Positions 13,636 to 63,932 of a stretch of DNA of 64,000 bases are shown here, one piece after another. The position numbers and the translations under genes were made by a program. The notes under the pieces are model-generated. The model was not told the DNA's origin. It searched no databases and saw only the letters and a list, made by a program, of their open reading frames with translations. The stretch spans positions 106,987,145-107,051,144 of the forward strand of contig CM068830.1 of the NCBI GenBank assembly GCA_028554795.2, read 5' to 3'. Within the stretch, counting starts at the first letter, position 1. Each line of letters starts with the position of its first letter. Source of the DNA: Sinohyriopsis cumingii (Eukaryota > Mollusca > Bivalvia > Unionida > Unionidae).

Positions 13636-13923
13636 GTATAACTAAATACACGTAAAATGAATATCATAGTGACCTAATTTTCTTCCTCTCCTGAGTTTGT
13701 TAGGTTTTGGGATGTCTATCCACAGCATTTCACGTAACTGTTAATTTGTGGATATTATTTTTTACAAACAAAAACAATCTACTTGTTACAAAAATGGGTT
13801 TAGCATATTATTTAGTTTTTGCTCGTCTTAAACTGAGGAAGGAGAACATGTATCATCTTCTGGAGAGAAATTCTCCAGCAGTATGGTCATTTTCACCAAC
13901 TTGCTCCAAATTCTTCAAGCAAG

Positions 13924-14612: not shown

Positions 14613-14659
14613 GATTCATGCATGAAAGTGATCATAAAATGCACAGACAGGACCACCAA

Positions 14660-31614: not shown

Positions 31615-32176
31615 TTAACGAAGCAGCTGATATTTGTCAACGATTATTTACAGGCGGTATCATGGACATAATGTTTAATGGTCCCTCATTGATGAAACCG
31701 TTGATGATTTCCGCAGTTGTTGAGGGTATGCACTTAGATCAGTGACACGAAAATAAGATGATCTTACATGATGTTCAACGTGGACCGATCATGGTCAGGG
31801 TGATAAATTCGCGATTACCAGCATATAAAGTTACCTACGGAGATGTACTCGGCGATGTTGTTCAGGGTTTATTTAGAAGGATAGCCCGAAAAGCAATACC
31901 GATTGCAAAGCAATTATCAATGAAAGCTATTGACGTTGTTCGGGATAAAGGAAATGGTGCAGTTGGTAATGTTGCCGGTAAAGCATTCTCAGCAATCAGG
32001 GATAGACTAGCATGCATATTGCGACGAAAACCGCAGTCAGTAAAATTACCCAGCACTGAAGTGATGCCTGCAAATGTTACTAAAATAATAAATCAAGTTG
32101 CAAATCAAAAACTAGCAAAGTTGGCTGGTATACCACTATCAGAAAAAGAAAATAATATAACTGCTAGTCTGATATA
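31615..32176 (+). pseudogene. Small basic virion-like protein, element 1
   Basis: The same frame as the preceding gene continues past a TAA with AADICQRLFTGGIMDIMFNG, and after another stop a shifted frame starts MILHDVQRGPIMVRVINSRL at 31,758. Residues about 35-90 of this frame are basic and amphipathic (GDVVQGLFRRIARKAIPIAK, later DRLACILRRKP), which recalls the membrane-active or core-condensing small proteins of Polinton and adenovirus virions. That likeness is by composition only. The frame ends at 32,175, 45 bp before the capsid-like gene. Confidence 0.5.
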
Positions 32177-32219
32177 GTAGGAAGTGGTCTTCGTGTTAGA
32201 CGATAACAATTATACTAAA

Positions 32220-32968
32220 ATGTTCAAACGTATATCTGCTCCAGCATTTGACATGGATGCACCAGTTCTCAAAGATGAATCTGTGCGCGATTATCAATAT
32301 TATTCTTATGAAGCACGAGAGCCAAATCAGCATGGACGAATCGAACTTCAAGTTCAGGATACAAGCAGATATTTCTTGCCCGCCGAGGCATTCATTGAAG
32401 TTCAGGTTAGACTGGTAAAAACCGATGGTAATCCCTATGCGGATGCGCAGGGTGGATTTGTTAATAAAGGAATTATGGCATTATTTAACAGTGCATGATA
32501 TATTACTGATGGTCGGGAAATTGAGGTTTGTCATAATGATGTTGATGTTGCTACGAAAATATTGGGGTTATCCCGATACAGCGATGATTATTCACGGTAA
32601 AAATCAAATTGATGCTCAGGGAAGATTTAGTTGTGCAATACCACTGTCATAAATCTTTGGCTTCTGCAGAAATGTTCGAAAAGTTATCTTCAGGGCAAAA
32701 CATACAGTTGTTCTTCTTCGAAAATCCACGGACGACGATGCTATCTGGCACGCTGAAGGAATTGATGGTCCTACAACCGTGGCACTTCATGGAAATGACA
32801 CTGACAAAACATTCGTTGTGAATGCCAGTAATGTCATCATCACTCGCTGAAGAACAACGACTGTTCTCTTTTATGAACATCAGCGTCAAATCAACGCTAT
32901 CATGGAACTACTACAGACTCGATCACGAGTAAACGTGTTGGCAGATTTGTTCAAAAATTTCGTATGAG
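32220..32968 (+). pseudogene. Double-jelly-roll major capsid protein candidate, element 1 (truncated)
   Basis: The frame begins MFKRISAPAFDMDAPVLKDE. It passes a stop at 32,497 (GCATGA), reads on to DVATKILGLSRYSDDYS, stops, and shifts into a frame with GRFSCAIPLS, IFGFCRNVRKVIFRAKHTVV and DDDAIWHAEGID. The pattern of SRYFLPAEAFIEVQVRL near the N-terminus and an IFGF-type motif midway fits my knowledge of capsid proteins in this branch of Polinton-like viruses. The C-terminal half expected for a double jelly roll (about 450-600 residues in total) is missing. What follows 32,850 is a short unrelated-looking tail ending at 32,968. A 5' alternative start lies at 32,184. Confidence 0.55.
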
Positions 32969-32969
32969 C

Positions 32970-33584
32970 ACACTTATTTTTCCAGATAAAAAGAATTAAT
33001 CCTTTTGAATCCAAATAATTTGAACTAACTCCAAACAACACAGCAGACACTTTCCAATGTAAGAGCCCAGCTGAGATTATTTCTCTAAAACAAAAGTTAT
33101 ATCGTATTCTAAAACCCAGTTTCGAAAATCCCCAAGTTGCGAAATCTAAAAAAGGGGATGTCACGTGATCGTGTTTATATCACGTACGCCTAACATGACC
33201 CTGACGAAAACCAATCATTTTACTCAAAAAAAATAAAATTAAAAAAAAATTTTTTACATCTTAAATCACGTAGTTCCATCATGACCTCGACAACAACCAA
33301 TCATTTTAAAATAAAAACAAACTTATTTACGTGTCTGCTACTAATTTTTAATCAAGGTCCGGAACTAGGTCAACATTTTGGTGTTTACGAAAGAATGGTT
33401 CAGGTCAACTGATTTTCTGGAAAAATATCATCTACAGTGAATTAATTTACATTAAAATAGCATGTAATGAGAAATATACAAACAAATAAAATAAAATAAA
33501 TATATCTTAAATCAGATATAATGAAATCAAATATACATAACAGTATAACCACCCACCATCGATTTAAATAGATCTTAAAGCATA
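32970..33584. other. Gap between virion genes; short direct duplication
   Basis: Two related segments, 33,178-33,245 and 33,266-33,330, share ATCACGTA, CATGACC, GAC, and AACCAATCATTTTA. The rest is AT-rich with no gene. The missing C-terminal half of the capsid gene may have been lost here. Confidence 0.5.
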
Positions 33585-33818
33585 ATGGTATATATTTACG
33601 GAAGATCTTCTTTAAGTTTTACTCAGAGTAAAACTCAGCAAGGCGACTTGTCTAAATATACAACTCTTGACGAGAGAAAGGATGAACTCGCTAATCTTTT
33701 GAGTCGCACAAATATGGACCAAAATGAAGTTATTTTTCAGAATAAACCAGGACGATTAAAGACGAGTAGTATCCCTTTGACATATTATTATACGGCTTCC
33801 AGATGCGACCGAAGATAA
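33585..33818 (+). pseudogene. Unrecognised small virion-region gene, element 1
   Basis: A 77-codon frame starts MVYIYGRSSLSFTQSKTQQG and contains LSKYTTLDERKDELANLLSR. It is polar with no membrane segment or known motif. It precedes a fibre-like gene, so it may be the N-terminal piece of the same protein. No stronger assignment is possible. Confidence 0.4.
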
Positions 33819-33877
33819 CTTAGTGGTGTTACTAAAATATTAAAATTAAACATCAGAGGAATAATTTTTTATCAGTC

Positions 33878-34350
33878 ATGGGAGAAAGTGCTGGACCCAT
33901 TAGAACAATCGGAGATATTATGTATGGCGAACTCAACATGAATAAAAATACAATTAATGTGAAAGAACCAAAATCAGACGATGATATGGTAACAAAACAA
34001 TATGTAGACAGCAACAACAACACGATCAGAACTGAGATCAATGATCGTTTATTAACGCAGGTGATACAATCACTGGTTCTCTCAATATATTTGATAATAC
34101 AATTACTAGTCTTGGAAAACTAGAATCAAGCGATGACGCTGCAACGAATAAATGCGTCGATGATAGAAACATTCCGATGATGAACTCGTTAATGAAAATG
34201 ATGGAAAGACCGCATTTAGATCTGAATATTCTAATAATGTACAAACGCTTTTAAATTTGCGTAGAAACATAAATAGAACCATTAATGGATTTGTTTTCGT
34301 CATCGCAAGAATTACTGCAACATATCGTCGCTAATACAACTCCGTAAAAA
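33878..34350 (+). pseudogene. Fibre-like protein with repeated motif, element 1
   Basis: The first frame (33,878-34,123) reads IGDIMYGELNMNKNTINVKE and KSDDDMVTKQYVDSN. After a frameshift near 34,060 the same pattern recurs: GDTITGSLNIFDN, then LESSDDAATNKCVDDRN. Repeats of the form 'GD-h-GxLxMxxNxI..L..P.S.DDAATKxYVD' are widespread in phage and viral tail fibres, so this is probably an attachment or fibre protein. A further shifted part reaches about 34,348 before the next gene. Confidence 0.55.
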
Positions 34351-34356
34351 ACCACG

Positions 34357-35078
34357 ATGATATCAGCAGGCTCGACCAACCCTCAGATCAGCGTTAACTT
34401 TCCAACTGCGATTCCAGCGAAAGAAATAACACTAGCACATTTACGAGTATATCATAACTGGCCAAATATTAGATCAAAATCATTCGGTATGTTGCACGCA
34501 AATAAGTCTCTGGTATTTGCGTATATTAAAAAAAACCCAGATGGAACCCCCGATTGTCAAGTTGTTGGTATTCCCACAAGTAATATCAAATTAAACAAAT
34601 CAATAATGTTGTTGTTGTTGTTGATGTGGGGTTTAACGCCATTTTCAGCACACGATAGGCTATGCATGGAGGTTAGTATTAATGGTGGAGGAAGAACCCG
34701 GGAAAACCCCGGCAAGAACCACGGATACACGAAAAGCTACTGGCAAGCGTTCTCACATACCCACATTGGCCGAATCCTAGACTAGAACCCACGCAGAGTT
34801 GAGATGGCAGTGATCCGTAACGGAGATCGCTTTAGACCACTCGACCACTCGAGGACCCCAAATTAATAATGAATTTCAGCGCAAAATCAGATCTATCAGA
34901 GGAATATAATTGAAAATAGCTATCAATGTTCACTAACCAAAATTATCAGCCGAGATATAAGTAAGCTTTCTAGATTATGCTGTTGATATATATCAATCGT
35001 CAAACCGAACTGTATTAGGATGGCCTGAAATACCACCTGTTTATCAAGGACCGTTAGAGCCTAAACTTTGGCAAATAT
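34357..35078 (+). pseudogene. Penton-like/minor virion protein candidate interrupted by a SINE, element 1
   Basis: The frame starts MISAGSTNPQISVNFPTAIP and continues LAHLRVYHNWPNIRSKSFGM. At 34,609 it runs into a reverse-oriented SINE-B. Beyond the SINE the viral reading resumes (NEFQRKIRSIRGI, then after stops SSNRTVLGWPEIPPVYQGPL) to about 35,078. A statement about function is inference: element 2 has a gene of similar place (62,114) beside its capsid gene. The interruption makes the unbroken frame to 34,785 a chimera of virus and SINE. Confidence 0.5.
34609..34859 (-). mobile_element. SINE-B inserted in element 1 virion gene
   Basis: The copy is reverse-oriented. On the plus strand it runs from TTGTTGTTGTTGTTGATGTG to the head CACTCGACCACTCGAGGACC. 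Target duplication AAATCAATAATG (34,597-34,608) and AAATTAATAATG (34,860-34,871) has one mismatch. The insertion post-dates integration of element 1. Confidence 0.9.
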
Positions 35079-35167
35079 AAAAAAAAAAATATTTTTAAAA
35101 CTTCCAAAATATCAAGTCTGCTATTTTAAAATTTTATGCTTTTCATGGTGAATTACTTGCTAACAGG

Positions 35168-35276
<109 letters not shown>

Positions 35277-35349
35277 AGAATGCGAATGCATTTGGAGACT
35301 TACAACATTTTTTTCCAATATTGCACAATATTACAATAAGGACGTATAA

Positions 35350-35992
35350 CAACATTTTATTGAAATGATAGAACATTTATACAGAGTACATAAGATCTTA
35401 AAAATATTAACAAAGCTATCATTGAAACGGTGATTAGATATGATGTACTTTTCACCGAAATCTATATAAAGAATCTTAGACGGTTGTTTCTCAATCATTA
35501 TAAAATAACCGAAACAGAATTGCCAGCATTTAAATTACCAGGATTTAATTACAACGAGCTAACAAAAACAGTCAACGATATAATCGATGGATATTTTCCA
35601 AAAGTACTTGAAGCATGGAGAAAAATAGCCACACCAGCAGCTATTCTGAAGTATAACAATGACCCATACGGCGGAGGTCGTCATATTTTACCAGGAATTG
35701 TAAATATAATATCAACGATCGCAGTCAATCTTGTATGTGATGCAATTGATGGCAGCTATCAAGAATATCTTGAAAAATCCAGCCAGGCTCAACAGGGATA
35801 TATTTTATATACATTTAAACCTCAAGTACCTCCTGGATATTTGATCGTACAAGAACCCATTAATCCGGTTTATCTGCGATGTCATAATCCGCTATGATCA
35901 AGGATACATTTCAAACTTACTGACCAGACAGGACACATTCTTGATTTGCGACATGAAGTTTTGACTTTAAATCTGTATGTAAGATCATAGAT
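35350..35992 (+). pseudogene. Unrecognised virion-region gene, element 1
   Basis: The longest frame (35,430-35,897, 155 codons) contains YIKNLRRLFLNHYKI, NDIIDGYFPKVLEAWRKIA, NDPYGGGRHILPGIVNIIST and QQGYILYTFKPQVPPGYLIV. A shifted frame then reads FKLTDQTGHILDLRHEVLTL to a stop at 35,990. The last motif, a 'TDQxGxxLDLRxExxT' strand pattern, is common at the C-terminus of small Polinton capsid-associated proteins, by recollection. This could therefore be the distal part of the gene at 34,357 or a separate jelly-roll protein. Confidence 0.45.
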
Positions 35993-35995
35993 CTT

Positions 35996-36292
35996 TTTGT
36001 AGATCTTCACGCTCGTGACAGAGTCAGGGAAAGTAAAACAAAAAATAGATTTCTGAGTCGAAACTGGCGTTTTACAAATAATGAGTTCTTCATTAAATCA
36101 AAGGGGTATTATATAATGCATCAACACGTAAGAGTTTTTATATACAAGAAAGAGATACTTGAATGCGCCGTCAGAACAATATTGACACTCTCCTGCCTTG
36201 ACTTTATCAAAGCAGAAAAATTTAGTGTTAATATAATTATTGATGAATACGGCGATGACGAACTTTTGTTAATGGAAGAACAATTAAATAGC

Positions 36293-36328
<36 letters not shown>

Positions 36329-36330
36329 AT
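35996..36330 (+). pseudogene. Unrecognised gene ending in a GA microsatellite, element 1
   Basis: An open frame without an early ATG reads VDLHARDRVRESKTKNRFLS and on through MHQHVRVFIYKKEILECAVR to DDELLLMEEQLNSW. There it enters (GA)n at 36,295 and becomes an Arg/Glu repeat. The microsatellite has probably replaced the original C-terminus. No family recognised. Confidence 0.4.
36295..36327 (+). repeat. (GA)n microsatellite
   Basis: About 16 GA dinucleotides inside the 3' end of a gene relic. Confidence 0.95.
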
Positions 36331-36429
36331 ATTATTACGAGTATGTGCGATACAGATCAGATTCTGAATTATGCACATTCTTGCATTGAATTTGATCAGC
36401 TTAAAAATGTATTATCTGATTCTGAATAA

Positions 36430-37480
36430 ATATAATCCTTGACAAAGTCAAGTCAGAATAAAAACAAATATAAATGATAAAATCATTGAATCTGATTCAG
36501 AATAAAACTCTAATTTAATCAAATTTACGGGTATATTGCCCATAATGTTTCAGAGTATCAAACAATTTCATCAAATTGATGGGTTTATTATCATTAATGA
36601 CGTTATTTTCAATGATTTTATCAATGATTTTAAAATGAATTTATTGTTATTAATATTATTTCAGATTAATGGTTAATTTCACAGATTTGACGGGTACATT
36701 ATCCAGATGAAATCATATTATTATACAAATTCATCAAATGGACGGGTATATTACCCAAATTAAATCAGATTATCAAACAATTTCATCGAATTGATGGGGT
36801 AAATGGCACTTAAAATAATACAAATCTCATCGAAAACAGAACAAATACACAATGATAAAAATTTCACCCATGACTTTGTCAAGAAACAAATAAATATATT
36901 ATAATATAATTTGTTTGTACTGATTCTTGTCCATATTTCAATATAAATGATGCTCAACCTTGATGAAGTCAAGGCAGTCAGATTTGATAATTTGATGGGG
37001 TAAACGGTACTCAACAGTAAAAATCTTACTGAAAACAGAAAATTACATAATAAATATTATTATTAGTATAAAGAAATATTATAATCTGAAACAATATTAT
37101 AATCCGAATAAATATTATAATCTGAATAAAAATAAAAAATATTATTTGCTGATTACAAATTTGATAGGGTGAATGGTACTCAAAATTGTGAAAATCAGTT
37201 AGATTTTATAACTTGATGGGGTAGACGGTACTCAAAGTAATAATTGTAGGACTTATTTCATAATTTGCTGGAGTAAATGGTACTACAAAATAATGCAAAT
37301 CCTACTGAAAACAGAAAAATACATCATAATAATAAATATCATAATGATAATAATAATAAGAAGAATCATTTTATATAAAAAAAAACCATTTCTGAATAAA
37401 AATAAATAATTTTATCAAAATTAAAAAATCTGAAACAGAATAAATATTATAATCTGAATAAGATCAGAATGAATATTACA
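36430..37480. repeat. AT-rich region with a scattered short motif
   Basis: Variants of TTGATGGGGTAAACGGTACTCAA recur near 36,790, 36,990, 37,165, 37,213 and 37,265, and a TGACGGGTATATTGCCCA-type version appears near 36,525, 36,690 and 36,743. Between them are runs of AATAAATATTATAATCTGA. No gene is supported. Confidence 0.6.
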
Positions 37481-38010
37481 TGTACTATTATTTGTTGACA
37501 TGTTCACTTTCACAGTCACTAGTGACTTTGTCATTGTTTTCATTACAATCCGTTAATCCAGATAAGATGAAACTCTCGCTGTTGCCATAATTTACACTTT
37601 CACAATCCCCTTTAGTGACGTTTTCACTACTTCACTTTCACAATCACTAGTGACTTTGTCACTGTTTTCATTTTCACTTTTACAATGGATCGTTTCACGA
37701 TCTGACATAATCTTTCTCAACTCTCTTACGCGTGTATTCACAATCTTTTTTGTTTCGTATTTGTGAGATAATTCTGATCAAATTTTTTCACTCGCGCTTT
37801 AGCTAGTAACGAATTTTTTAACCTCTGTGTCTTTGATTGTCGCCAAGGATTGTAACATAGATGGTTGAATCAGCTTAATGAATCGGTATTCTACAGGTAA
37901 TATATACCTATTTTCAAATTTTCGTTGTTGTAATGATTCAAAATCACAAGTAATTTTAATTATTTCAAATTACGCTACTCCAAAGACAGTAATTGCTACA
38001 TAGGTGGTTA
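37480..38010 (-). pseudogene. Unrecognised minus-strand gene relic, element 1
   Basis: From about 38,000 leftward one frame reads TCDFESLQQRKFENRYILPV and LIQPSMLQSLATIKDTEVKK to a stop near 37,800. A shifted frame further left is acidic and repeats NENSDKVTSDCESE / NENNDKVTSDCESE (about 37,655-37,610 and 37,540-37,500). The two halves may be one protein with an acidic tail. No family recognised. It lies between the virion genes and the HNH gene. Confidence 0.4.
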
Positions 38011-38149
38011 TTAATGTATAATACTTACGATCACCAAAAAATAACGCTGAGGTCATTACGCATTAACAAGCTTGGTAACTATTTATTACACTACCGGAGA
38101 GATCTTTGCTTGAGTTATCTCCCTTCATCTGTTTGTATTTAATACAATC

Positions 38150-38969
38150 GGGAGATACTAAAATATGATTTTTTGTTTATATTTCTTCGAAAACACCGAT
38201 CTTGGAATATTATCTGCAACACATTGTACATAACGCATTGAAATACCAAACTATTTTGCAGCTGCTTTCATTGATTGTAATATTATTTCTTCACCAGTCT
38301 CTGTATTAACAGATTTAATTGCCCTCCATGCAAATTTACATTGTTTACTAATACCACCAAATTTGCTATTTTGACTTTGATAGCTCGTAAATTACCCAAG
38401 GAATTATCGAGTTTCCTGCCGTTGATATGATAAATCACAAGTCCATTTTTGATTAATCCATGAAAACATTCGTACACGAATTTATGACAAAGGTATATGT
38501 TATTTCCACCCCACCCCCCGTATTGAATATGAGATAACTAGTATTATTAACAAAACGGACTGGGTTTTATTCGACAGTTCCTGATTACACCATCTCGAGA
38601 CGCTTTATAATTCTTGATGATGGGATGTTTCACATATTCATTTTGCTCTATTTATATATAAATTTTTGTCTAAATAATTTTCTTGAAAATCTGGCTAGAT
38701 AGTCTTCAGCGTTTTTATGAGATATTCATTGGCATTATATTTTGTATCATAATATCTTTTTAGCTCTCTATATTTTTAGCACCACATTGCACACACAACT
38801 GCTTTACCCCTCTAACCCCAACACCAAACTTCAAACACGGTTTTGGTCCTTGACTCCCTGTTCTAACGCTTTGTAGGTGAAATACACATAATTCGTTTAC
38901 GCAGGCTTTCTTACAGGGAGTTAAAGAACCTATCATTAACCATTTACAGTTATTCTTTGTTTGAATCAT
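38150..38969 (-). pseudogene. HNH homing-type endonuclease with NUMOD-like modules, element 1
   Basis: Reading leftward, the ORF at 38,969-38,760 is Cys-rich (PCKKACVNELCVFH, then PCLKFGVGVRGVKQLCVQCG), which looks like an N-terminal zinc-binding part. After decay, HPIIKNYKASRDGVIRN resembles the NUMOD4 'Y.vSn.G.vr' strand. Next, VIYHINGRKLDNSLGNLRAI matches the HNH core (H.NG...DN...NL). A shifted frame then has SVNTETGEEIILQSMKAAAK, matching the NUMOD1 pattern. Stops and frameshifts are frequent between 38,480 and 38,760. The domain order zinc finger-NUMOD4-HNH-NUMOD1 fits free-standing homing nucleases. HNH His and Asn are still visible. Confidence 0.65.
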
Positions 38970-38990
38970 TATGTATATATTAATATTTCA

Positions 38991-39097
<107 letters not shown>

Positions 39098-39109
39098 TTA
39101 ATTATAATA

Positions 39110-40384
39110 TGGAAGAGTTTAAGAGATTATCTACAATCAATCTTCACAGAAGAACCCCTGACTTGCGGAGGCGAGCTCAGGTTGATCCGACGGAAACCTG
39201 GAAAGAATTTCGCAACGAAGGTGCAGCTCATGTCTGGTCAACATTCAGAATTATACGCGACACCGAAGGTGTTGTCTATGCTTCAATGAATGACCAACGA
39301 GCGGCGACGATTATTAATTATCACGACAATCAAAGATATTTTTTTAGAATAAATTTTTTGTAGCGGTAGATATCGTAAAACCAGATACTTGCATTATGCG
39401 TGACAAACGTGACCATGTCCGTCTTCCTGGAAATACTGTTACGTTAAATAAAAATTCCAAACGAGGAATGTTGACTGGTATTGATAAACCGTATTATAAA
39501 CGAGCGTATGATGTGACTGCAGTTTTTTTTTGTAATATATCCGCTGGATAATAAACCTAGCGTTGGTGATCTCAAAACGATGAAATATTCGACGCAGAAT
39601 TGTGTAGCCGAACGAATTACAGAACATTTCACAAACACGATACGTGGAAACGGTTTAGCAGATCTAAGACGTAAAAAAAGAAATGAGTGGGCAGAAACAG
39701 TTAAAGGTACCGGAGCATCTATCAAAGACGTTGCTGAACTGGGAAAGAAACTAAAATGTTCAATAAAAGTAAAAACAATAACCGAAGAGTTCTTGCACGA
39801 ATCGAAATATAAATCTAAAGGAGCTCCGATAAATATTATTGATCATAATGCGCATGCGTGGACATCGGTGGTGACAATATTTCTACGAAATCGAACTGTT
39901 AAGTTCCATCAAGGTGGTATGTTTATCAAAAATATCAGTAAAAGCGATCCTGTATCAATGTAGCTATTTCAAAGTTCCAATGATGGAAACTGTGATCAGT
40001 TTGTACGACCTAATGGAGATATTTATCGTACAAAATCTCTCCACGAAGAAATGAAACATTTGCCTTGAAATATAACCATGACGATGCTGAACAATTACTG
40101 AGTAATTGTTTTACCATTCTGTATGCTGCTGCTCATTTTGCTCAGAAAGAAAATTCATGGAAACCAACACGTTTGGAATTTCTTGAAGAAATACAACACA
40201 GTTGTGTTGAATATGGACACTGTGGATTGTGGAATACCAGATACAAGTATAAGGATATTATCTCGGTTGATATGTTTGCATTTTATCCTGGAAGTTTGCT
40301 TGGAATGGGAGAGTATTCTAAATACTTTGGATTTGGATATCCAACACACGAGATGACCAGAGTCGCGATAAACGGACCGTTACC
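39110..40384 (+). pseudogene. Protein-primed family-B DNA polymerase fragment, element 1
   Basis: An ATG at 39,110 opens MEEFKRLSTINLHRRTPDLR, which stops at 39,361. A further frame (39,366-39,530) and, after a frameshift in a T run, the frame at 39,540-39,960 follow. The last has NCVAERITEHFTNTIRGNGL, WAETVKGTGASIKDVAELGK and INIIDHNAHAW. After a stop and another shift, 40,065-40,384 contains EKNSWKPTR-type linker sequence and then IISVDMFAFYPGSLLGMGEY, which has the 'D..xx.YP' look of PolB motif A. Exonuclease motifs are not clear to me. Sequence breaks abruptly at 40,384 where the antiparallel integrase tail begins, so motifs B and C are lost. PolB is the best reading from motif A, gene place and general likeness. 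Confidence 0.5.
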
Positions 40385-41110
40385 ATATAAATATCTTACA
40401 GTCACATTAATTATTACTTGTTGTTTTAAGAAGGAGTCATTTCGTAGTATTGGTATATGTTTTCTTGTGATCGCATTGATAGGTTTCATAGAAATTGCAC
40501 GAGTAATTTTATTATTTATCGCAGCTCTTACACTTGGTAGTCTTGCAACCCATTCACGAGAATTCTTGTCTTTCTGCATTATTTCCTTCTCATACTGATA
40601 TCCAAACAATCGCTTAGCAAGTGTTTGATTATATCGTTCAACAATTGTCTGATTTTGACTTTTATTTTCTCCATCAGAGAAGATGCTGCATCAAGAAATT
40701 CCTTGCCAGGATCAACCTGTAGCAACTGTGGCCACCGTACACCATCTTGTGGTCCGGATCCTCGTTGATAAAATCGTTCAAACGCAGATGCAACTTCACT
40801 TGATGTTTTGGTCGATAGTGGTTCTGTTTCTTTATACCGACTAGCAACGTCAACGATAGTTAACGCATATTTGAATGTGCGCGATTGACGTCTACCAGTT
40901 TAACAGTATTGTGTTGTAAAAAAGAAAATATCTGCCTGATTAACTTCATTTGGAGTGCTGACATCAAAATGTGAGTACTGAAGTTTTTAGGTGGTTAAGT
41001 ATATATTTGCCATATTGCCTGTCGTGCTAACCAGTTTTCAGCAACATAACCTGTACCATTTGCTGCATCATCAATTTTACTAAATCGATTCCATAATAAT
41101 GATCGGTTGA
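40384..41110 (-). pseudogene. Retroviral-type (rve) DDE integrase, element 1
   Basis: Reading leftward, an N-terminal helical part (GYVAENWLARQAIWQIYT) is followed, after a stop, by HFDVSTPNEVNQADIFFF with the first catalytic Asp. Next come KYALTIVDVASRYKETEPLS, then WPQLLQVDPGKEFLDAASSL with the second Asp, and TIVERYNQTLAKRLFGYQYE with the Glu. A helical tail (WVARLPSVRAAINNKITRAI) ends in VTVRYLY at 40,384. The D-D-E residues survive but stops and frameshifts break the frame. The sequence type differs from the integrase of element 2 and has no chromodomain; its C-terminus is deleted at the junction with PolB. Confidence 0.8.
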
Positions 41111-41113
41111 TAA

Positions 41114-41431
41114 ATTACTATAGCACTAGTTTGCCTATCGCAGATTTTACTAGGACGCTAGCAAGTTTTCTCTGAATGATTTATTTTTTTTTATGGAATT
41201 TAACGAGTGAATCAACTTCACATCTACAATATGTCGTTGTTGTAAATCCTTATTTTTATACGCTACATCATGAACGTGACATGCTTGATCAATCGCATTT
41301 ATTTGATACTCTCCAGGTTTTGGTTGATCTCGTTCGTCAAGTCCGATATCAAAATGTTTTTCTCCTGGATACTTAGCCCATGGAGCTCCTGGTAATTTTC
41401 CCAGTGAAGCAGCGATATCACCAGGAGACAC
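41114..41431 (-). pseudogene. Phospholipase A2-like protein (VP1u-type), element 1
   Basis: The frame begins MSPGDIAASLGKLPGAPWAK at 41,431. It carries NAIDQACHVHDVAYKNKD, the catalytic HD pair with the following Tyr and Asp, and RHIVDVKLIHSL, where the helix normally has another Asp. A stop at 41,150 is bypassed by a -1 shift into VLVKSAIGKLVL, which looks like the native C-terminus. In parvoviruses and related viruses such a domain opens endosomal membrane at entry. The glycine-rich calcium loop expected before the catalytic helix seems shortened or absent, so activity would be lost. It lies just upstream of the integrase on the same strand. Confidence 0.7.
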
Positions 41432-41620
41432 TTTGTGTCCTGACTATGTCAGCAAGATAAATTTGTATTTGCTTGTACTACATTATACACACTTACCTGT
41501 AAGGGCACGCTTATTTTTTTATTTTTTTTTTCTTTGTTATTATTGTTGTCAATCCACTGGTGGCGATGGGTGCTCTGCATCGAACAAAATATAAATCCAT
41601 ATTATTTATTATATTTGCAC
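41432..41620. promoter_or_regulatory. Divergent intergenic region, PLA2/ATPase
   Basis: A 190-bp AT-rich gap separates the minus-strand PLA2 start from the plus-strand ATPase start. A T-rich run lies at 41,513-41,531. It would have to hold both promoters; no clear TATA box is visible. Confidence 0.3.
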
Positions 41621-41624
41621 AACA

Positions 41625-42300
41625 TGTATATCATTGATTTTCCAGCGACATGGAAGCAAGAACCAGTGAAACATCATCCAGCGCTAGCAAATTCTATCAG
41701 AGAAACTTGTCAAAGGTTCATCTGGGTCTGGTAAGACGCAGTTGTTGCTTAATCTGATAATGAGATATCTCAAGTGGGATAAATTATATTTAGTGTCACC
41801 ATCTATAGAAGATCAGCAATGCCACAATGTGCTCAAAGATTTTAATGAAAACGCAAAATTGTTGGACGAGGACGGCAATGATATTTTTGATTTTATAACC
41901 GATATTGATGAAACCGCATCTTTAGATGACCTCGGTTGATTTATTAATAATCTCTTAGTATACGATAATGTGATGCTGGATAAACAATCAAATCCAGCTC
42001 GGATATTTTCTCGAGGCAGACAAAAATATACAGACGTGATTTAAGTTACTCAGCGATATTCACAAATACCAAAAGTGATCAGAGATAAATGTATTATTTA
42101 AGTTGTGTTCCATGGAGTCGATACAGATACTCTGCGAAACATTCGTCAAACTTGGTGTTCAGGGGATATGGATATGATTAAGTTCAAAACCTTCTTTTCA
42201 AAAGCACAAGCAACACCACACGGATTTATCACGATAAATTTATATGATCCTCGGTCGCGATATCGTGTAGGGCTTGATAAAAAATTTCGTTTTACAAACA
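41625..42300 (+). pseudogene. A32/FtsK-type DNA-packaging ATPase, element 1
   Basis: An ATG at 41,625 gives MYIIDFPATWKQEPVKHHPA. A frameshift just before the P-loop leads into the frame with GSSGSGKTQLLLNLI (Walker A, from 41,715) and KLYLVSPSIEDQ. Beyond a stop at 41,938, NNLLVYDNVMLD occupies the Walker B place with Asn where the second acidic residue is expected. YTDVI and VTQRYSQIPKVIRD follow as the sensor strand. The frame at 42,105-42,290 gives KTFFSKAQATPHGFITINLY and RYRVGLDKKFRF as the C-terminus. The ATPase drives genome packaging in Polinton-type virions. Stops, one frameshift and the altered Walker B indicate a pseudogene. It ends right at the inverted end repeat. Confidence 0.8.
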
Positions 42301-42302
42301 GC

Positions 42303-42329
42303 AGCAGGGAGGGTGCGACCAACAATGAG
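42303..42329 (-). repeat. Element 1 right inverted end repeat
   Basis: CAGGGAGGGTGCGACCAACA plus five bases is the perfect reverse complement of 30,674-30,698. It directly abuts the ATPase C-terminus, so any longer terminal repeat must lie further out or be lost. Confidence 0.6.
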
Positions 42330-42815
42330 CGTCACCAAAATACCAACGGGCTCATATCCCAAACAATAAACAGTTTCTTGAAATCATTACCAAGAATACA
42401 TAAAACTTACTCATGTATTAGCACCTCGATGAGAAGAAGAAAATGCTCTTAAATAGACTGGAAATACAGATGTCGGTGCTGACCCGGAAGGGATAAACGC
42501 GATCTGAGTCCACCTTTTCGACTTACGAATCATGGGTTGACTGAGGATTTGGACTCGGGACACTATCATTGCCAGTTCAGTACCAGCGAATGAAGTCCTT
42601 GTCTATTTTTAGAGCAATTTTGTTTCTCTTTACTTTTAGGCATTCTTGGTATTGATTAAAGATAACTGATCATTCTTTAAAACTGTAGCATTCAGGTGTA
42701 ATAGTCTGTCTCTATTTCGGAGACAGTGCACAGTGAGTAATGAGGCATTGGTGCTGTTCTGGAAACTAAATCTCAGACCCATTGCACGGTGCTTTTGTTT
42801 ACAGTCCTGCCTCTA

Positions 42816-55130: not shown

Positions 55131-55138
55131 GAAAGCAA

Positions 55139-55175
55139 CTCTTTTCGAGGCATCTGAGTGGCCCTGAAAAGGGCC
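55139..55175 (-). terminator. Histone-type mRNA 3' end: stem-loop plus downstream element (minus strand)
   Basis: On the minus strand GGCCCTTTTCAGGGCC (55,175-55,160) is a perfect six-pair stem with a TTTC loop, the metazoan replication-dependent histone stem-loop consensus. It is preceded by AAA and followed by ACTCA (cleavage normally follows CA). After exactly 12 nt comes CGAAAAGAG (55,147-55,139), then TTGC, a good match to the U7-snRNA-binding element. It lies 18 nt after the stop of the minus-strand gene at 55,194-55,518. Confidence 0.8.
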
Positions 55176-55193
55176 TTTAATGCTTTGTTAACA

Positions 55194-55518
55194 TCATTCC
55201 GTTAACACAGAAGGCAACGCATAAGTCTTTTTCTCTTCCTCAAACTTATTCTGACTTATGGTCCGTCTATAAGGACTCTCGTCAAACAGCCTTGTCTCTC
55301 CACATCAATTCTTATTTTCCAAACGCTCGTATCCGTGATCCTGATAATTGTCCATGATGATCTGACATAAATGGGTAAGTCTGTACGGAACAGCATTGAT
55401 GATACGAGAGTATACTATTCTACGTTTGTTCACATCTTCTGACGAGAATAGGTGAAGGGAATGCAGTGAACTGCGGTTCGGATCGAAACGGATTGAGTTT
55501 ATTCACCAATCCAAACAT
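55194..55518 (-). pseudogene. Unrecognised minus-strand gene ending in a histone-type 3' signal
   Basis: A start at 55,518 gives MFGLVNKLNPFRSEPQFTAF. A frameshift near 55,445 leads to EDVNKRRIVYSRIINAVPYR and LTHLCQIIMDNYQDHGYERL. One in-frame stop follows, then RLFDESPYRRTISQNKFEEE and the end at 55,194. About 110 residues, charged and soluble-looking. It is not a histone: no histone-fold sequence from H2A, H2B, H3 or H4 is recognisable in any frame. It diverges from the gene at 55,669. It probably belongs to element 2, but this rests on place and equal decay. Confidence 0.5.
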
Positions 55519-55559
55519 GCGTTACAAAATTCACTCACAATATGGAATCGGTCTTCCAA

Positions 55560-55668
55560 TCCGAAGAGAGCAGTCTGTGACGGCACATTGGCTATATAGA
55601 TGTGCTAGCGTCTATGCGCAGTCAATCCATGCGACACAGTTTTCAAACATGACGGAAAATAAAAGACA
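55560..55668. promoter_or_regulatory. Shared divergent promoter with TATA and CCAAT
   Basis: CTATATAG at 55,592-55,599 is palindromic and can serve either strand. ATTGG (inverted CCAAT) abuts it at 55,587. The plus ATG at 55,669 and the minus ATG at 55,518 lie 70-75 bp either side. Out-of-frame ATGs at 55,629 and 55,649 precede the plus start. The arrangement resembles divergent histone gene pairs. Confidence 0.5.
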
Positions 55669-56275
55669 ATGGATTGGGGTGTACCGGCTGTGGAGACGAG
55701 AAGTGATGATACAGTAGTGGCTACCAAGGTTAACACAGCTCTACTTCCAGAAGAGGTCGATTTTAATTGGGATTTAGTCGATTTTCTTTCTTCGCAAGAA
55801 TTTATTCTGGTACCAGTACCTTCGCCACCTTCTCCCTATTTACCACATGTCGACGATTTTGAACAGATACAGAAAGAAGAATTGGATAATTTTTACAGCA
55901 GCAGAATAAAACAGAACAAGCTTTTCTCCTTCAAAGCAACAGCAAGAAGAAGAGGCAAGAAGGAAACGACAGGAAGAAGCAGCAGAGAATAAACAAGGTC
56001 TAAGAGAGAAGGAAGACAGTGAAAGTCAAACGGTAACCGTACTCTTAGACATTTTAGCAGAGTTAAGGAGTCTGAAACAAATGTAAGAGACTTCTTTATT
56101 ACCACCCAAGAGAAAAATACCTTCTCGAGCCAAACAACCCAGCTCTGTTGCTACGCTTACCATACCACCCCTAGTGATTTCTACCAAATCAGCATCGAAT
56201 GGAACCAGTCCAGAAGTAGGCCTTGATCGTGGCAAAGGCTTAAGGCAGCTAAAGATGAATACGTCCCGTTCCTGA
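55669..56275 (+). pseudogene. Unrecognised plus-strand gene with coiled coil, ending in a histone-type 3' signal
   Basis: The frame opens MDWGVPAVETRSDDTVVATK. A Pro-rich acidic part follows (VPVPSPPSPYLPHVDDFEQI). A frameshift near 55,920 leads into KQQQEEEARRKRQEEAAENK, a likely coiled coil, and TVLLDILAELRSLKQM. A TAA at 56,084 interrupts, then the same frame gives PPKRKIPSRAKQPSS and a basic tail (LDRGKGLRQLKMNTSRS) to a TGA at 56,273-56,275. Length is about 200 residues. The basic tail and coiled coil would suit a virion or DNA-binding protein, but the family is unknown. No histone similarity extends beyond the short RGKGL string. Confidence 0.5.
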
Positions 56276-56306
56276 GTTGTATTTTTTAAACAAACACATA
56301 CCTAAC

Positions 56307-56343
56307 GTTCCTTTTCAGGGCCACCCAATTCTTTCGAAAAGAG
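56307..56343 (+). terminator. Histone-type mRNA 3' end: stem-loop plus downstream element (plus strand)
   Basis: GTTCCTTTTCAGGGCC differs from the perfect stem-loop at 55,160 in two left-arm positions (one wobble, one mismatch). It is followed by ACCCA, the canonical cleavage context. After exactly 12 nt comes CGAAAAGAG with GAGAGC beyond it. It lies 31 nt after the stop of the plus-strand gene. Similarity with the other signal is limited to stem-loop, CA and CGAAAAGAG, which points to function rather than a duplicated terminal repeat. Confidence 0.75.
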
Positions 56344-56579
56344 AGAGCATTTCAATTGCCAAAATCAATTAAAACTCAAATGTCCTATTTTACCCACGAT
56401 ATACGTATGTGAGTGAGTGAGTGAGTATAGGTATTAATGAAAAAAATCAAAACTAAGAGACACGTTTTCTGTCTGGTCTATCCTGGTACAAATTTTACAA
56501 TCCAATTCAGAATACAATACTTAAAAAAGTTAATAGACTTCTTCTGTGTCTTTGTTCACTTTCTCTCTTTTTTGAATTT

Positions 56580-57008
56580 CTTCACTTTCACACTTTTTCC
56601 TCCTCTTCCTTCTCTTCGTCTTCTTTTTATCTCTTTTTTCTTTCTTTTTTCTCTTTCTGCACGTATCATGGGTTCTTTCTTTGGGGAGGGTACCTCTTCT
56701 TCTTCCTGTTGGGAGCCCTTCTATTCTTCTTTCTCCTGTTGTTTCTTAGAGCATTCTGAAGACCAATATCCTTCCTCGTGAGAATGATAGCAGGTATCTT
56801 GACTTTTGTCTCTTCTGGCACCTGTTTTGTTTTTTGGACGGCCTAGACACTCTGAAGACCAATGGCATTTCTTCTTACAGATATAACAAGTGTCTTGACT
56901 TTTATTTCGAAAGGAGGGCGAGTAGTCTGTCGGCGTGTCTGAAGAATATTTTCTTATGACACCTCGCAAAGCTCTGATCGTAAGTTCGATCTGTATGGGC
57001 TCTTCCAT
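56580..57008 (-). pseudogene. CCHC zinc-knuckle protein, element 2
   Basis: The start at 57,008 (MEEPIQIELTIRALRGVIRK) is preferred over the in-frame ATG at 57,059 because a TATATATA box lies on this strand at about 57,064-57,072 and would start transcription between the two. A zinc knuckle, DTCYICKKKCHWSSEC (C-x2-C-x4-H-x4-C), is followed by a second, decayed one, DTCYHSHEEGYWSSEC, where the second Cys and the His are lost. The frame ends at 56,721, and shifted Lys/Glu-rich frames continue to about 56,580. A nucleic-acid-binding role is likely. Whether it belongs to the virus or is a co-inserted sequence is not certain. Confidence 0.5.
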
Positions 57009-57059
57009 CGTTCTGCTCAGTTTGAGAGTGAAATGAATATTGGAAGGGAAGACACACAC

Positions 57060-57078
57060 CCGTTATATATACCCTAGT
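57060..57078 (-). promoter_or_regulatory. TATA box of the zinc-knuckle gene
   Basis: GGTATATATAACGGG on the minus strand lies about 55 bp upstream of the preferred ATG at 57,008, a normal TATA-to-start distance. Confidence 0.45.
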
Positions 57079-57245: not shown

Positions 57246-58829
57246 ATGAGTGAGCCCGAATCCAAACCCAGAGATGCTACAAACAACCAAAGTTCACCAC
57301 GATTAGTAAACCCTGAAAAGTACTACCACATTCGAGAGACAGAAAAGCGCTCCTCTAAAAAATTTAGAACCACAAGTTACACGTACACGGTGAAGTTTAA
57401 AGATTTCAAGTCTGACGTACCGTTGTAGAAAGCAGATGGGTTCATCATTGAAGCGTGGACTTCTTTGTTAACCACACTGAAACGGCAATGTCAAGCGAAA
57501 GAAGACGATCGCTTGAGACTTTCCTTCATCACCACGGTTTGAAGTCCCCGTTTGGATCGAGTTTAGCAGCCCAGCAGAACTGACACCTTCTAAAGTCACC
57601 GACATGATTCAACACGTGCAACAATCCAACAAGTTTCACATCACCGATGGTAAAGTGACACTGTTCATGACCCAAGAGTCTCTTCCCCATGGAACAGGAA
57701 GCAAAAAGGTGTTATTGATCGACGATCTTCGTAACACCAAAACAAGTCTCGTCCAAATTAACAACCCTCAAGACCAGATGGGCTATCGTGGTGGGACGAA
57801 CGTATGCCGACGAAAACGGCAAGGCAGAATGGAAAAGAGCCTGAGAGAACATTCGCAAATTGAACCGTCTCAAACAACGAAGCGAACCAGAACTCCTGTT
57901 ACAGAAAGCAGGGCTATCCAAAGACACACCCAGTGGCATTCATGAAATGCAAAAATTGCAAGATGTCTTTTCACCACGCTACACCTTAAAAGTGCACCTT
58001 CAAGAAGTACGTGGACCTCTGTTATTTGGAAGCAATGACTTGAAAGACGGCAAATATATTCACGTCTTTCATCACAATGAACGTTTCGATACCATTACCA
58101 GTATCACTGGATTCCTGGAATACATATATTATTGTGAGAAATGTGACTATGGCTATAACAATGGAGAGCAACACAAGCATTGTTGATCGAAATGATCAGG
58201 ATGTTTGGTCTCTCAACCCTGTCTAGACAAACGACAACAACAAGAGCATTGCCCAGCGCACTTTTGTCAGCCCGACCTGCTACCAGCAACATCTGAAGAC
58301 TCAAGGTTCACAACAGAAAAGTGCTTGTCAACTCCTGAGATTGTGCCCTACTCGCGGCAAGGCATACGTACGAATAATGTCAAGACACGCGTATTTTCAG
58401 GAAAGAAACGTTGTCATATATGTCACCGAATCGTGGAATTGGAACATCAATGCTACATTAAAAAAACATTCTAAACATCAAGAGGAAGGCAATGACCAGA
58501 AGAAAGAGATTTTCATCTTTTTCGATTTCAAATTCATGCAAGAGAATGGCATTCACATTCCTAATTTCTGTGTGGCTCATCGAGCGTATGAGAAGTGCAT
58601 TCAAGAGCCTATCTTTAGTCATTGCTCTCACTGCAGTAAAATTCCAGGAGGACGTGAAAAAATATTTCGGGGACCAAACATGCTAGCCGATTTCGCCCAA
58701 TGGATGTTAGACCCCATCGACGAGACGTGGAGCCAAGAGGACATCGAACGTTACGGAAATAGTCATGTCCATGCGACGGTAATGGCTCACAATTTCTCGG
58801 GATACGATGAACAGTTTCTTTTGAGATAA
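57246..58829 (+). pseudogene. Protein-primed DNA polymerase B, N-terminal half, element 2
   Basis: Successive frames give an N-terminal part (MSEPESKPRDATNNQSSPRL; FRTTSYTYTVKFKDF) and then DTPSGIHEMQKLQDVF. YIHVFHHNERFDTITSITGF leads into a zinc motif, YYCEKCDYGYNNGEQHKHC (58,127-58,183), and a second, CHICHRIVELEHQC. The exonuclease begins with IFIFFDFKFMQENG, where ExoI normally reads D-x-E and here has Lys in place of Glu. ExoII is intact-looking, AHNFSGYDEQFLLR. The gene then stops at 58,829, and the whole polymerase domain (palm motifs A-C) is absent before the ATPase at 59,170. Order and motifs match Polinton PolB closely. At least four frameshifts occur. Confidence 0.85.
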
Positions 58830-59169: not shown

Positions 59170-59883
59170 TCTTCGTGTCAAAAGTGACATTCCTTGCACA
59201 AAGGCTACCTCTGCTGTCTCTGCTCCCTCTTCCTCCACTTTCAAAGTCATCGACGAGCACTTAGATTGTGCCAGTTGGGAGGCCTTGTAACTTCGCCATC
59301 TCTCTAACATGTTAATTGATGGACCTAGCGGTTTAGGCAAAACCGAATTTGCCAAACGTTTGATCGAACATAAACATCATTTGACCGATCGTCCACCTCA
59401 ACGAATCATGTGGTGTTACAGAGAGTGGCAATCGGTGTGCAGCCTCTTGCGAGAAAGTCAAGGTAAGTCCATCGTATTTGTGGAAGGCATTCCTAGCGAA
59501 GACAACGGAATCGTGTCTGACCCCAGTCAAACCCATCTGGTCATCTTTGACGAAATGTTAAGAGAAGACAAAGAAGAAATTAAACTGTGGTTTACGCGCA
59601 AAGGGCATCATCGTAATGCCAGTGTTATTTACATTACTCAAAATTTGTTTCAACAAAGTAAAGCCCATCGCACCATCAGTCTCAACTCTCATTACGTAGT
59701 ATTGTTTAAAAGTCCTAGAGATAAATCGCAAGTGCAAGTCTTAGCCAAGCAGTTAGGAATGCCTTAGCTAACTCATCGGTTTGAAACCCACCACTCCCGA
59801 ATATTTGCGATTTCGTACCCATTTGTTTCATCATTGCTGTCAAGATGGAGGGCCTGTCCTGTACAAGTCTCCGTTGTCGACTT
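59170..59883 (+). pseudogene. A32/FtsK-type packaging ATPase, element 2
   Basis: The frame starts upstream of the obvious ATG: FKVIDEHLDCASWEAL, a TAA at 59,288, then MLIDGPSGLGKTEFAKRLIE with a Walker A. THLVIFDEMLRED is Walker B with both acidic residues, VIYITQNLFQQ the sensor strand, and SLNSHYVVLFKSPRDKSQVQ the following conserved region. A stop at 59,765 is bypassed by a shift into PTTPEYLRFRTHLFHHCCQD, a plausible C-terminus to 59,883. Core motifs survive better here than in element 1. The family packages DNA into Polinton and other tectivirus-like capsids. Confidence 0.88.
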
Positions 59884-60414: not shown

Positions 60415-61770
60415 ATGAAAGCTTGGCTTAAACATATGATGTACACTCCTCCTTCGACAGAAGTGAAAAAGAAGGGAAACCAGAAGTGAAAAAAGAAAAG
60501 ACGACCAAAGTAATTCCACGACCACCTCCATCACGACCTTCGACTTCTACTCCCGTGGTCCATCGGACACGTAAATCCGTTTCAGAACCACCCTTTCGCC
60601 CCGTCCAAAGTAGCATCAGCAAGAGTGGGTAACTTATTAAAAATGGAGAAGGTGTTAGCCGGCATTTACTACGATCCATCCCATCCTGTAGGTTACGGAG
60701 GAGATCAGAAATTGTATCGTGCTGCCAAAACCCATTCGACAAGTCTCCATTTACCTCAAATACAACGATGGTTACAGGAACAAGCCACGTACACTTTACA
60801 CAAATCCATTCGTCGAAAATTTTCCAAACGTCTCACTCGAGTGGAGGAAATCGATCATCAATGACAAGCCGATTTAGCCGATGTCTCTCATTTGGCCACC
60901 TACAATCGTGGCTACAAATATTTGTTTTGTGTTATCGACGCCTTTTACAAATTTGCCTGGGTCGTACCATTGACTTCCAAATCGAGCAGTGAATTAGTGC
61001 AATCCCTACAACTGGTGTTGAAACAAAGCGGTATTCACCCTCTTCGATGGCAAACTGACAAAGGTACCGAATTTCTTAACCAAACTTTCCAAAAAGAACT
61101 AAAGAAACGTGACATTCACTCTTTCACCACCGAGAATCCAGAAACCAAAGCCAGCATCGTGAAAGGTTTTCAACGCACCTTGAAAGAACACATGTGGAAA
61201 TATTTTACGCATCACCACACTCTCGAGTACATCGACGTCATACCGCACCTGGTTCAAGCGCACAACCAATCTTACCATCGAAGCATTAGACGACCCCCCC
61301 CCCAAGAAGTGATTATCGACAACGAAGTGACCGTTTCTGAACGCTGTTGGCAGTAGGAGATTGGGTGCGCATTGACAAAACCAAACGCACATTCGACAAA
61401 GGTTACTCATCCAACTGGACCACCGAATTGTTTCTTGTCACTGGTCGAGTTCATTGTCGTCATCCTGCCGTCTATAAATTGGAAGACATAAACGGGGGAG
61501 CGTTAAAAGGAAAGATTTACTTGCCCGAGTTACAACGTGTCACCAAAAAAGAAGACGTGTACGACATCGAAAGCATTCTCGAACGCAGAACCCGTCAAGT
61601 GGAAAAACGACGTGTCAAAGAAGTCAAAGTGCGTTGGAAAGGATATCCTCCCAGTTTTGATTCTTGGATCGACGCTTCGAAAGTCATCGACTATAAAAGA
61701 AGTGACCATCATACCCTTCCACACAGCCTCATCTACCGCTACCACTACAGCGACAACTCTTTCACCTAAG
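60415..61770 (+). pseudogene. Integrase (rve) with C-terminal chromodomain, element 2
   Basis: From 60,643 the frame gives MEKVLAGIYYDPSHPVGYGG and the N-terminal part to a TGA at 60,862. In the same frame, QADLADVSHL carries the first Asp of the triad and YLFCVIDAFYKFAWVVPLTS follows. Next is LRWQTDKGTEFLNQTF with the second Asp. At the third catalytic place the sequence is ASIVKGFQRTLKEH, with Lys/Gly where Glu is expected. After a +1 frameshift near 61,350 come VGDWVRIDKTKRTFDKGY (SH3-like DNA-binding part), then a chromodomain from about 61,550 (VYDIESILERRTRQVEKRRV; VRWKGYPPSFDSWIDASKVI). The chromodomain would tether integration to modified histones. Lost Glu and stops make it inactive. 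Pro/Lys-rich frames at 60,415-60,640 may be its 5' part or a separate gene. Confidence 0.88.
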
Positions 61771-62678: not shown

Positions 62679-63932
62679 ATGATGTACCGAGAGTCTTGCG
62701 CCTGTTCCAAGTCGGAACTGGATCTGTTTACCATGATGCCTACTAAGAATCCCAATGGGTCGAATTTCATCCCATCTTTTCTGTCAAATACTCAGGGTCA
62801 GCCCCCATCGCGTTTGAAATCAAAGGACAACCCGAAAATTGCATCGATCTGAATAACAGTTACTTGTACTTGAAAGTGAAAGTGATTGACACGTCAACAG
62901 ACGGTCCCGGTATAAAGAACGATGATAAATCGCCCCCCCCCCTCCTCTTTCAACAATTTCATGCATTCCTTGTTCAGTGAAGTGGACTTGTATTTGAATA
63001 ACAAACTGGTCAGTAGCAGCATGGACACTTACCCTTACCAAGCGTACCTGGAAAATATCTTGACGTACGGAAAAGAAGCTAAGAACACCCCTCTGAATGG
63101 TTGTGTGGTATGGAAACCTGACACAGCGGGCAAGTTTGACGATACCGACTTGATTACAGATAAAGACCCCAACCACGATTTGGGATTCAATGCCCGACGA
63201 AACAAAATCAAAGGTCCCAATAGAAATTTAGAACTGATGGATCGTTTGAATTTAGAGATGTGGTTGCAAAATAAGTATTTGCTAAATGGGGTGGATGTCC
63301 GACTCAGACTGAATCGTAGCAGTGCCGCTTTTCATTTGATAAGTGATGCTGTCTATTACAAAACCATCATCTAACGACCGCCAAGTATCCGATACGACGC
63401 GTGGAATTGAAAACTGTCACCATTCCAGCTGGACATCAATCCATGATCGAAGATCATCTGTTCCAAGGGCAGTTACCCATACGTTTGATCCTTGGTATCG
63501 TCAAAAATACAGCCTTCAAAGGAGCCTTTGATGAAAATCCTTTTGAGTTTCAGCACTACAATGTGTCCAAGATCGAAGTCAGTTAGATGGCAAAACCTTG
63601 TGTACCAGACCTTTCGAACCTGACTTTAGTGACGAGAAGAAGAATTACTTGACCCTGTACGAAGCCACATGCCAGTTATGAGCCAACACCAGTCACGGCA
63701 TTACGTACGAGGATTATGGAAAAATGGTTACACTTTGTGGGCTTTTGATTTCACCCCAGACCAAGGCAGCGTCGAGGGACATTTCCACCCATTAAAATCA
63801 GGACAGATTCGTGTGGAACTTCAGTTTCCAAAGCCAATACCCGTAAACAACACGGTGATCGTCATCCTGTATGCCGAATTTGATAATACCATAGAAATCA
63901 ACAGTTTGAGAGAGGTCATTCCAGACTATTAG
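62679..63932 (+). pseudogene. Major capsid protein, double jelly roll (F54H12.2-type), element 2
   Basis: ATG at 62,679 gives a Cys-containing N-terminus and SELDLFTMMPTKNPNGSNFI, typical for the family. Frames then change at about 62,795 (ENCIDLNNSYLYLKVKVIDT) and at a C-run near 62,935-62,943. The long frame 62,922-63,374 follows (NNFMHSLFSEVDLYLNNKLV; TYPYQAYLENILTYGKEAKN; RNLELMDRLNLEMWLQNKYL). Later frames contain VELKTVTIPAGHQSMIEDHL, QLDGKTLCTRPFEPDF and finally GLWKNGYTLWAFDFTPDQGS with IVILYAEFDNTIEI to 63,932. Almost the full length of about 415 residues is represented, so only small lesions broke it. It forms the icosahedral shell of Polinton virions. Confidence 0.9.

Follow-up and report, generated by a model that had tools for sequence, protein, structure and literature searches.

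Why should the non-histone genes of a virus-like mobile element end in the signals of a histone mRNA? To our knowledge, the SLBP/U7 3′ end is regarded in animals as a device of histone genes only. The question is raised by a 64-kb stretch of Sinohyriopsis cumingii DNA (the window, meaning the whole stretch analysed), where a preliminary description had proposed that two non-histone genes of a Polinton carry histone-type 3′ signals. The analysis reported here upholds that proposal and widens it: this Polinton family very probably carries histone-type 3′ ends on at least five accessory genes, processed by the SLBP and U7 of the host.

The two signals lie between 55.1 and 56.3 kb at the outer ends of a divergent gene pair, arranged tail-out and 1.1 kb apart. 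On the minus strand, the 3′ end of the leftward gene (55136..55180) consists of a perfect stem-loop with 6 bp and a TTTC loop, GGCCCTTTTCAGGGCC at 55175-55160, then ACTCA and the purine element CTCGAAAAGAG. On the plus strand, the 3′ end of the rightward gene (56302..56347) consists of a stem-loop with two changes, GTTCCTTTTCAGGGCC at 56307-56322, then ACCCA and the purine element TTCGAAAAGAG. AC(T/C)CA stands directly behind both stem-loops, and CGAAAAGAG is found 12 nt past the stem on both sides (55147-55139, minus; 56335-56343, plus). One perfect and one two-change stem-loop, AC(T/C)CA and the 12-nt spacer are thus all present where the preliminary description had placed them, and the Rfam Histone3 model (RF00032), which it had suggested running, matches both sites. 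The match at 55136-55180 (minus) scores 33.8 bits, just under the gathering threshold of 34, with an E-value of 5.8e-6 over the whole window, and is the top-scoring Rfam match listed for the window; that at 56302-56347 (plus) scores 17.2 bits (E 9.1) and is weak when taken alone. There is no third RF00032 match in the 64-kb window. A scan at the gathering threshold reports neither site, the better one falling 0.2 bit short. Pair 2 of the plus-strand stem is mismatched, which probably impairs the stem in this copy. Chance was assessed with 40 first-order random sequences matched to the window in dinucleotide composition, in which a hairpin of at least 5/6 pairs plus AAAGAG was sought on both strands. 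Such a combination is expected 0.175 times per 64 kb in these 40 simulated sequences and is observed twice; a strict consensus stem is expected 0.025 times and is observed once. A chance origin of the window signals is ruled out by the simulated sequences together with the reversed genome-wide control given below.

The genes behind these signals are decayed in the window, since both are broken. The leftward accessory gene (55205..55435, minus), approximately 76-77 aa long in sibling copies, has in-frame stops here and is 62% identical by tblastn to the L049 protein. The rightward gene (55669..56275, plus), which starts with the ATG at 55669 and encodes approximately 189 aa in siblings, has a frame change and a stop here and aligns to the sibling protein in two tblastn pieces of 48% and 64% identity. 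The accessory proteins of the window are only 48-64% identical to those of the abundant family described below, and the leftward stem and purine element are still intact. The rightward gene also exists beyond the window copy, because a 96-aa protein from a 618-bp public contig (P0001) shares its start, with the same start Met and 59% identity. Searches of the accessory genes against Pfam, PHROGs and PDB gave no convincing match. Between the two genes, the intergenic region 55436..55668 (no strand assigned) presumably acts as the promoter region of the divergent pair; on the rightward gene's side it holds TATATAG at 55593, 26 nt before an initiator-like CAGTC.

According to PMC4028283, Polintons are defined by a type B DNA polymerase (PolB), an RVE integrase, an A32/FtsK-like ATPase and terminal inverted repeats (TIRs), and in these same features the present element resembles Polintons/Mavericks and adintoviruses. 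Sibling L085 encodes a type B DNA polymerase (DNA_pol_B_2, 89.5 bits) and a packaging ATPase (Pox_A32, 33.8 bits), and sibling L086 an integrase with a chromodomain (rve, 53.4 bits; Chromo, 31.6 bits). The element is therefore a Polinton, as polymerase, integrase, ATPase and TIRs are present. It likely also has a protease and a capsid: a candidate adenovirus-like cysteine protease matches Peptidase_C5 below the cut-off (E 0.032), and the capsid-like gene, the candidate for a double jelly-roll capsid protein, has no match in Pfam or among PDB sequences. In L085, two BIR (inhibitor-of-apoptosis) domains of 53.9 and 83.9 bits are encoded at 2048-3215, between PolB and the ATPase.

The window retains a worn version of this gene set. 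An open fragment at 58227..58829 (plus) lies at the position of the siblings' PolB, identified as such in L085, and has no Pfam PolB match. It is followed by an A32/FtsK-like packaging ATPase at 59291..59767 (plus), whose Pox_A32 match (E 0.0032) is below the cut-off and most of whose listed homologues carry PF04665, and by an RVE integrase with a chromodomain at 60865..61769 (plus), split over two frames (rve, 41.8 bits; Chromo, 29.5 bits). An interrupted gene at 62916..63932 (plus), by eye the counterpart of the 491-aa and 443-aa ORFs of L086 and L087, is the putative major capsid gene, judged by its position; it is without a histone signal. A small CCHC-like (zinc-knuckle-like) ORF at 56721..57062 (minus) matches Pfam zf-CCHC_5 only at E 0.6, and the window scan gave no RF00032 match there.

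The window belongs to a 2.90-Gb assembly in which C1-C19 are chromosome-sized. Across this genome the exact core pattern, CCTTTTCAGGGCCACYCA followed after 5-9 nt by CGAAAAGAG, occurs 8,496 times (4,211 + 4,285), and its reverse 0 times. The first places listed, all on C1, are often arranged tail-out in twos with 1.1 kb between them, and a third core site, its tail outward, lies approximately 16-25 kb away from such pairs. Of the 8,496 sites, a few dozen were read; these all lie in dispersed Polintons, and the others presumably do so too. In 13 pairs, picked by the pattern itself and hence biased, the stems are perfect at 26/26 sites; they stand at the outer ends of a divergent gene pair encoding approximately 189 and 77 aa, with the stop approximately 20-27 nt upstream of the stem where the C-terminus is intact.

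An unbiased sample was drawn by searching the genome with the ATPase fragment alone, which is blind to the stem-loop. This search gave 31,670 first-look candidates; the 150 that were scored have no stops in the match, so the family seems very abundant. The matches are 86-88% identical to the window. From them the first match on each of C1-C19 and C31, the window excepted, was taken with its upstream stretch, giving 20 copies, and three stretches were lengthened by 700 bases. The rightward gene is present in 19 of the 20; in the remaining copy (C2; L066, L089) it falls outside the stretches read, and that copy is left out of the 19. In all 19 the stem-loop stands 21-30 nt past the stop, and GAAAAGA is kept in 18, the purine element of L090 being degraded. 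Rfam was run on 19 stretches (L065-L080 and L082-L084, with L081, L090 and L091 left out). RF00032 matches all 17 stretches that hold the rightward gene, 15 of them at or above gathering; L065 (33.0 bits) and L084 (23.0 bits, stem impaired) fall below it, and L066 and L071 give nothing. The leftward gene lies inside five of the ATPase-chosen stretches, with its signal present in four and lost in L065. These copies come from one genome and share recent ancestry, so the 19/19 does not amount to 19 independent events. Scans of viral contigs with the capsid fragment, the ATPase and the ATPase alignment gave no relatives, nor did a scan of genome contigs with the ATPase alignment. A pattern scan of viral contigs picked up three loci without any Rfam match, and the contigs that bear them have phage-like genes.

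The signal extends to the other end of the element. Nine right-end stretches, seven reached through the outer site (L055-L061) and two through the ATPase (L086 and L087), contain three further small genes, A, B and C. A Histone3 match follows gene A in 8/9 (L060 being without), gene B in 9/9 and gene C in 9/9; gathering is reached at 6/9 C sites and at no A or B site (19.8-33.5 bits). At least five genes per element thereby carry a histone-type signal. Judged by eye, A, B and C seem to derive by divergence from a single helical, charged repeat, which C seems to contain twice, and none has a Pfam match above the cut-off. An extra histone-type stem-loop, AGCCCTTCTTAGGGCT, lies at 440-485 of L058 behind another ORF (26.6 bits).

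The A and B stems read AGCCCTTTTCAGGGCT, in which the outer pair is altered on both sides. Over 48 sites, counting only those with at least 4/6 pairs, stem pair 1 is G-C in 29, A-U in 18 and mismatched in one, a compensatory change from G-C to A-U in A and B, which may be a single event because A and B are possibly duplicates. As a measure of conservation, the frequency of the commonest base was averaged over four segments: the 60 nt ahead of the stem-loop, the stem-loop itself, the purine element and the stretch after it. The values are 0.951/0.989/0.963/0.909 for the rightward gene (17 copies), 0.963/0.992/1.000/0.931 for gene A (8 copies), 0.903/1.000/0.960/0.937 for gene B (9 copies) and 0.874/0.979/1.000/0.826 for gene C (9 copies), where the rows of gene A (8 of 9 copies) and seven of those of C were selected for carrying the signal. 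Stem-loop and purine element vary less than both flanks at A, B and C, and slightly less at the rightward gene. One could read the signals as a neutral leftover, captured once together with a host histone 3′ flank and persisting because the copies are recent. The copies are indeed close relatives, with ATPases 86-88% identical to that of the window, and the flanks are also well conserved. This reading is most unlikely, however, given that the signals are kept across lineages in which the accessory proteins have diverged by 36-52%, that there are five sites with differing spacers, that the outer pair changed in a compensatory manner in A and B, and that the least variation falls in the stem-loop and purine element.

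The host histone genes carry signals of the same kind. In one array unit, H1, H2A, H2B, H3 and H4 all reach RF00032 gathering, with CTAGAAAAGA behind H1, H2B, H3 and H4 and CCCGAAAAGG behind H2A. The same CTAGAAAAGA is found at 8/8 A and 6/9 B sites (14/17), and the outer Polinton sites carry CTCGAAAAGAG. As in a histone mRNA, the Polinton ends have a 6-bp stem, a 4-nt loop, ACCCA and a purine element approximately 12 nt on, and the stop codon lies roughly 20-30 nt upstream. They differ from it in that the genes are non-histone and sit in a virus-like mobile element, and in the A-U outer pair of A and B. Sequences, positions, conservation and likeness to the host histone signals are all direct observations, and by their sequence the Polinton 3′ signals are of the histone 3′-end type, with the purine element as the putative U7-pairing site. 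A single U7 could serve the purine elements of host and Polinton alike. A search for U7 with RF00066, in which 65 of 801,960 candidates were scored, was empty, as it was for the control genomes; by pattern, three matches were found vs six in the reversed control, and the likeliest of the three had no support from Rfam.

Many histone gene pairs are divergent, tail-out and about 1.1 kb long, as is the pair in the window, which raises the idea, voiced with the first description of the locus, of a degenerate host histone pair beside the Polinton. It is contradicted by the absence of any histone Pfam match in the two pair genes, which holds for A, B and C as well, and by the relatives of both genes, which are non-histone genes of other Polinton copies. 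Moreover, of the 150 histone matches that were scored, the majority belong to an 8.3-kb tandem array, located on C14 and on small contigs, and the exact core pattern fits none of the array's five genes. For this reason the core sites are not the histone cluster, and a histone origin of the pair is barely conceivable.

The position of the outermost two signals could point to another role. In 7/7 copies with both ends read, they form the innermost part of the TIRs: the inverted repeat starts 5-11 nt before the stem-loop and extends outward for 306-437 aligned columns at 87-98% identity, these lengths being those within the stretches read, with the outer ends lying beyond. The leftward gene and gene C therefore both end inside a TIR, and the spread of TIR identity suggests insertions of different age. 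The stem-loop might accordingly be a DNA element of the TIR, a site for replication, integration or packaging that merely resembles the histone signal. Two of the five sites, those innermost in the TIRs, suit this idea, but the three others are internal, each past a stop codon and on the coding strand. Nothing would oblige a DNA site to retain its strand and its polarity relative to the gene, nor does it account for a purine element at the histone distance that takes, in A and B, the form of the host histone element. A TIR element is thus very unlikely, and an RNA 3′ end is the preferred reading.

The genes with and without such ends fall into two groups. No histone match is found in L085 (PolB end, BIR genes and ATPase), or before gene A in L086 and L087 (ATPase, integrase-chromodomain and capsid-like gene); nor is there one in the interval from protease to gene A in any of the six stretches that include a protease. 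Instead, AATAAA lies 107-112 nt past the protease stop in 6/6 copies and past the capsid-like stop in 2/2 copies, at 39 nt in L086 and at 109 and 207 nt in L087. No AATAAA lies within 300 nt past the stop of the ATPase (two copies), the integrase (one) or the PolB part (one). With AATAAA behind protease and capsid-like gene and none at the ATPase, integrase and PolB stops, the arrangement fits one unit closing after capsid/protease. Among the stem-loop genes, AATAAA or ATTAAA occurs between 60 nt before the stem and the end of the purine element in 4/17 (rightward), 1/8 (A), 0/9 (B) and 1/9 (C) copies, and within 150 nt past the purine element in 7/17, 3/8, 0/9 and 1/9, respectively. A backup poly(A) end is therefore possible for some of them. 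In their 3′ ends, the accessory genes resemble histone genes, and the core genes resemble polyadenylated ones. Each accessory gene may form its own Pol II unit. In the 5/5 copies where its start is printed, gene B has TATAAATT 21 nt before CAGTC (four copies) or TAGTC (one), and no single shared promoter word was found.

A mechanism can be proposed from histone biology, in which the processing and S-phase timing of such mRNAs are established. Host Pol II would start at a separate promoter for every accessory gene; host SLBP would bind the Polinton stem-loop, the host U7 snRNP would pair with the GAAAAGA element, and a cut past ACCCA by the host's histone cleavage complex would leave a poly(A)-free mRNA. 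As long as SLBP is present, this mRNA would persist and be translated; thereafter it would be destroyed, giving S-phase expression of the accessory genes. For transcripts of the integrase, capsid-like and protease genes, ordinary polyadenylation at AATAAA would supply the 3′ end. With two signals at the inner TIR edge, the outermost genes end in the TIR, so that transcription would be closed before flanking host DNA. SLBP/U7 processing, S-phase expression and a benefit to the element are what we infer from this analysis. A virus lineage with AATAAA for its core genes, SLBP/U7 for its accessory genes and the outermost two signals in its TIRs is, on balance, the probable picture. The preliminary description had tied histone-pathway 3′ ends to S phase and to late or structural expression. 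The signals themselves hold up, being kept 3′ of the same two genes in related Polintons of the same genome, but the late or structural link is not supported: the capsid-like, ATPase, integrase and protease genes are without the signal in the copies read, and AATAAA comes after the stops of the protease and capsid-like genes.

Histone-type ends could also be used without coupling to S phase, with SLBP serving poly(A)-free mRNA that is kept in store or translated in oocytes, embryos or the germ line, all of them places with stockpiles of histone mRNA. High copy number requires germ-line activity, which speaks for such a use. Control of maternal histone mRNA outside the cell cycle is likewise known (PMC12803260). 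Germ-line use of this kind is a possible but doubtful substitute for S-phase timing.

Other DNA viruses offer partial parallels. The mRNAs of mimivirus and its virophages have hairpin-directed 3′ ends, polyadenylated by virus machinery and with no fixed sequence. These Polintons likewise appear to mark mRNA 3′ ends by hairpins, but with a copy of the stem-loop and purine element of host histone genes. The adomaviruses, also animal DNA viruses, touch histone biology through 'histoid' proteins (PMC11071296, in which 'histone' is used only for histone-like proteins); these are histone-like proteins, unlike the Polinton feature, which is an mRNA 3′ end on non-histone genes. The words 'histone', 'stem-loop' and polyadenylation are absent from the main texts of PMC4028283 and PMC11071308. 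No report joining histone-type mRNA 3′ ends with Polintons was found in a literature search that left most subscription journals uncovered.

We know of no earlier virus with histone-type 3′ ends on its own non-histone genes, and this would be the first virus to use them so. Host-manipulating genes would then be coupled to S phase, and RNA data in agreement would reveal an unusual viral route into S-phase gene control. A mobile virus that has copied the SLBP/U7 end onto several genes would mean that the pathway can be captured, and hints at how, without any poly(A) tail, a Polinton may keep pace with the DNA replication of its host. The animal genome would in turn be seeded with many mobile histone-type terminators, and the family provides a large natural set of stem-loop variants.

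The window also holds other sequences. A second, distinct and decayed Polinton-like element was assigned by eye at 31746-42452; it has an integrase fragment at 40579-40899 (minus; rve, 28.3 bits, below the cut-off), and the RF00032 window scan gave no histone-type signal in it. Repeated copies at 24254-24880 resemble the mir-7 precursor below threshold, the best scoring 32.7 bits against a gathering value of 51.8, and tandem repeats at 13832-14659, open on both strands, code for VPHKGLTGMIHA-like units.
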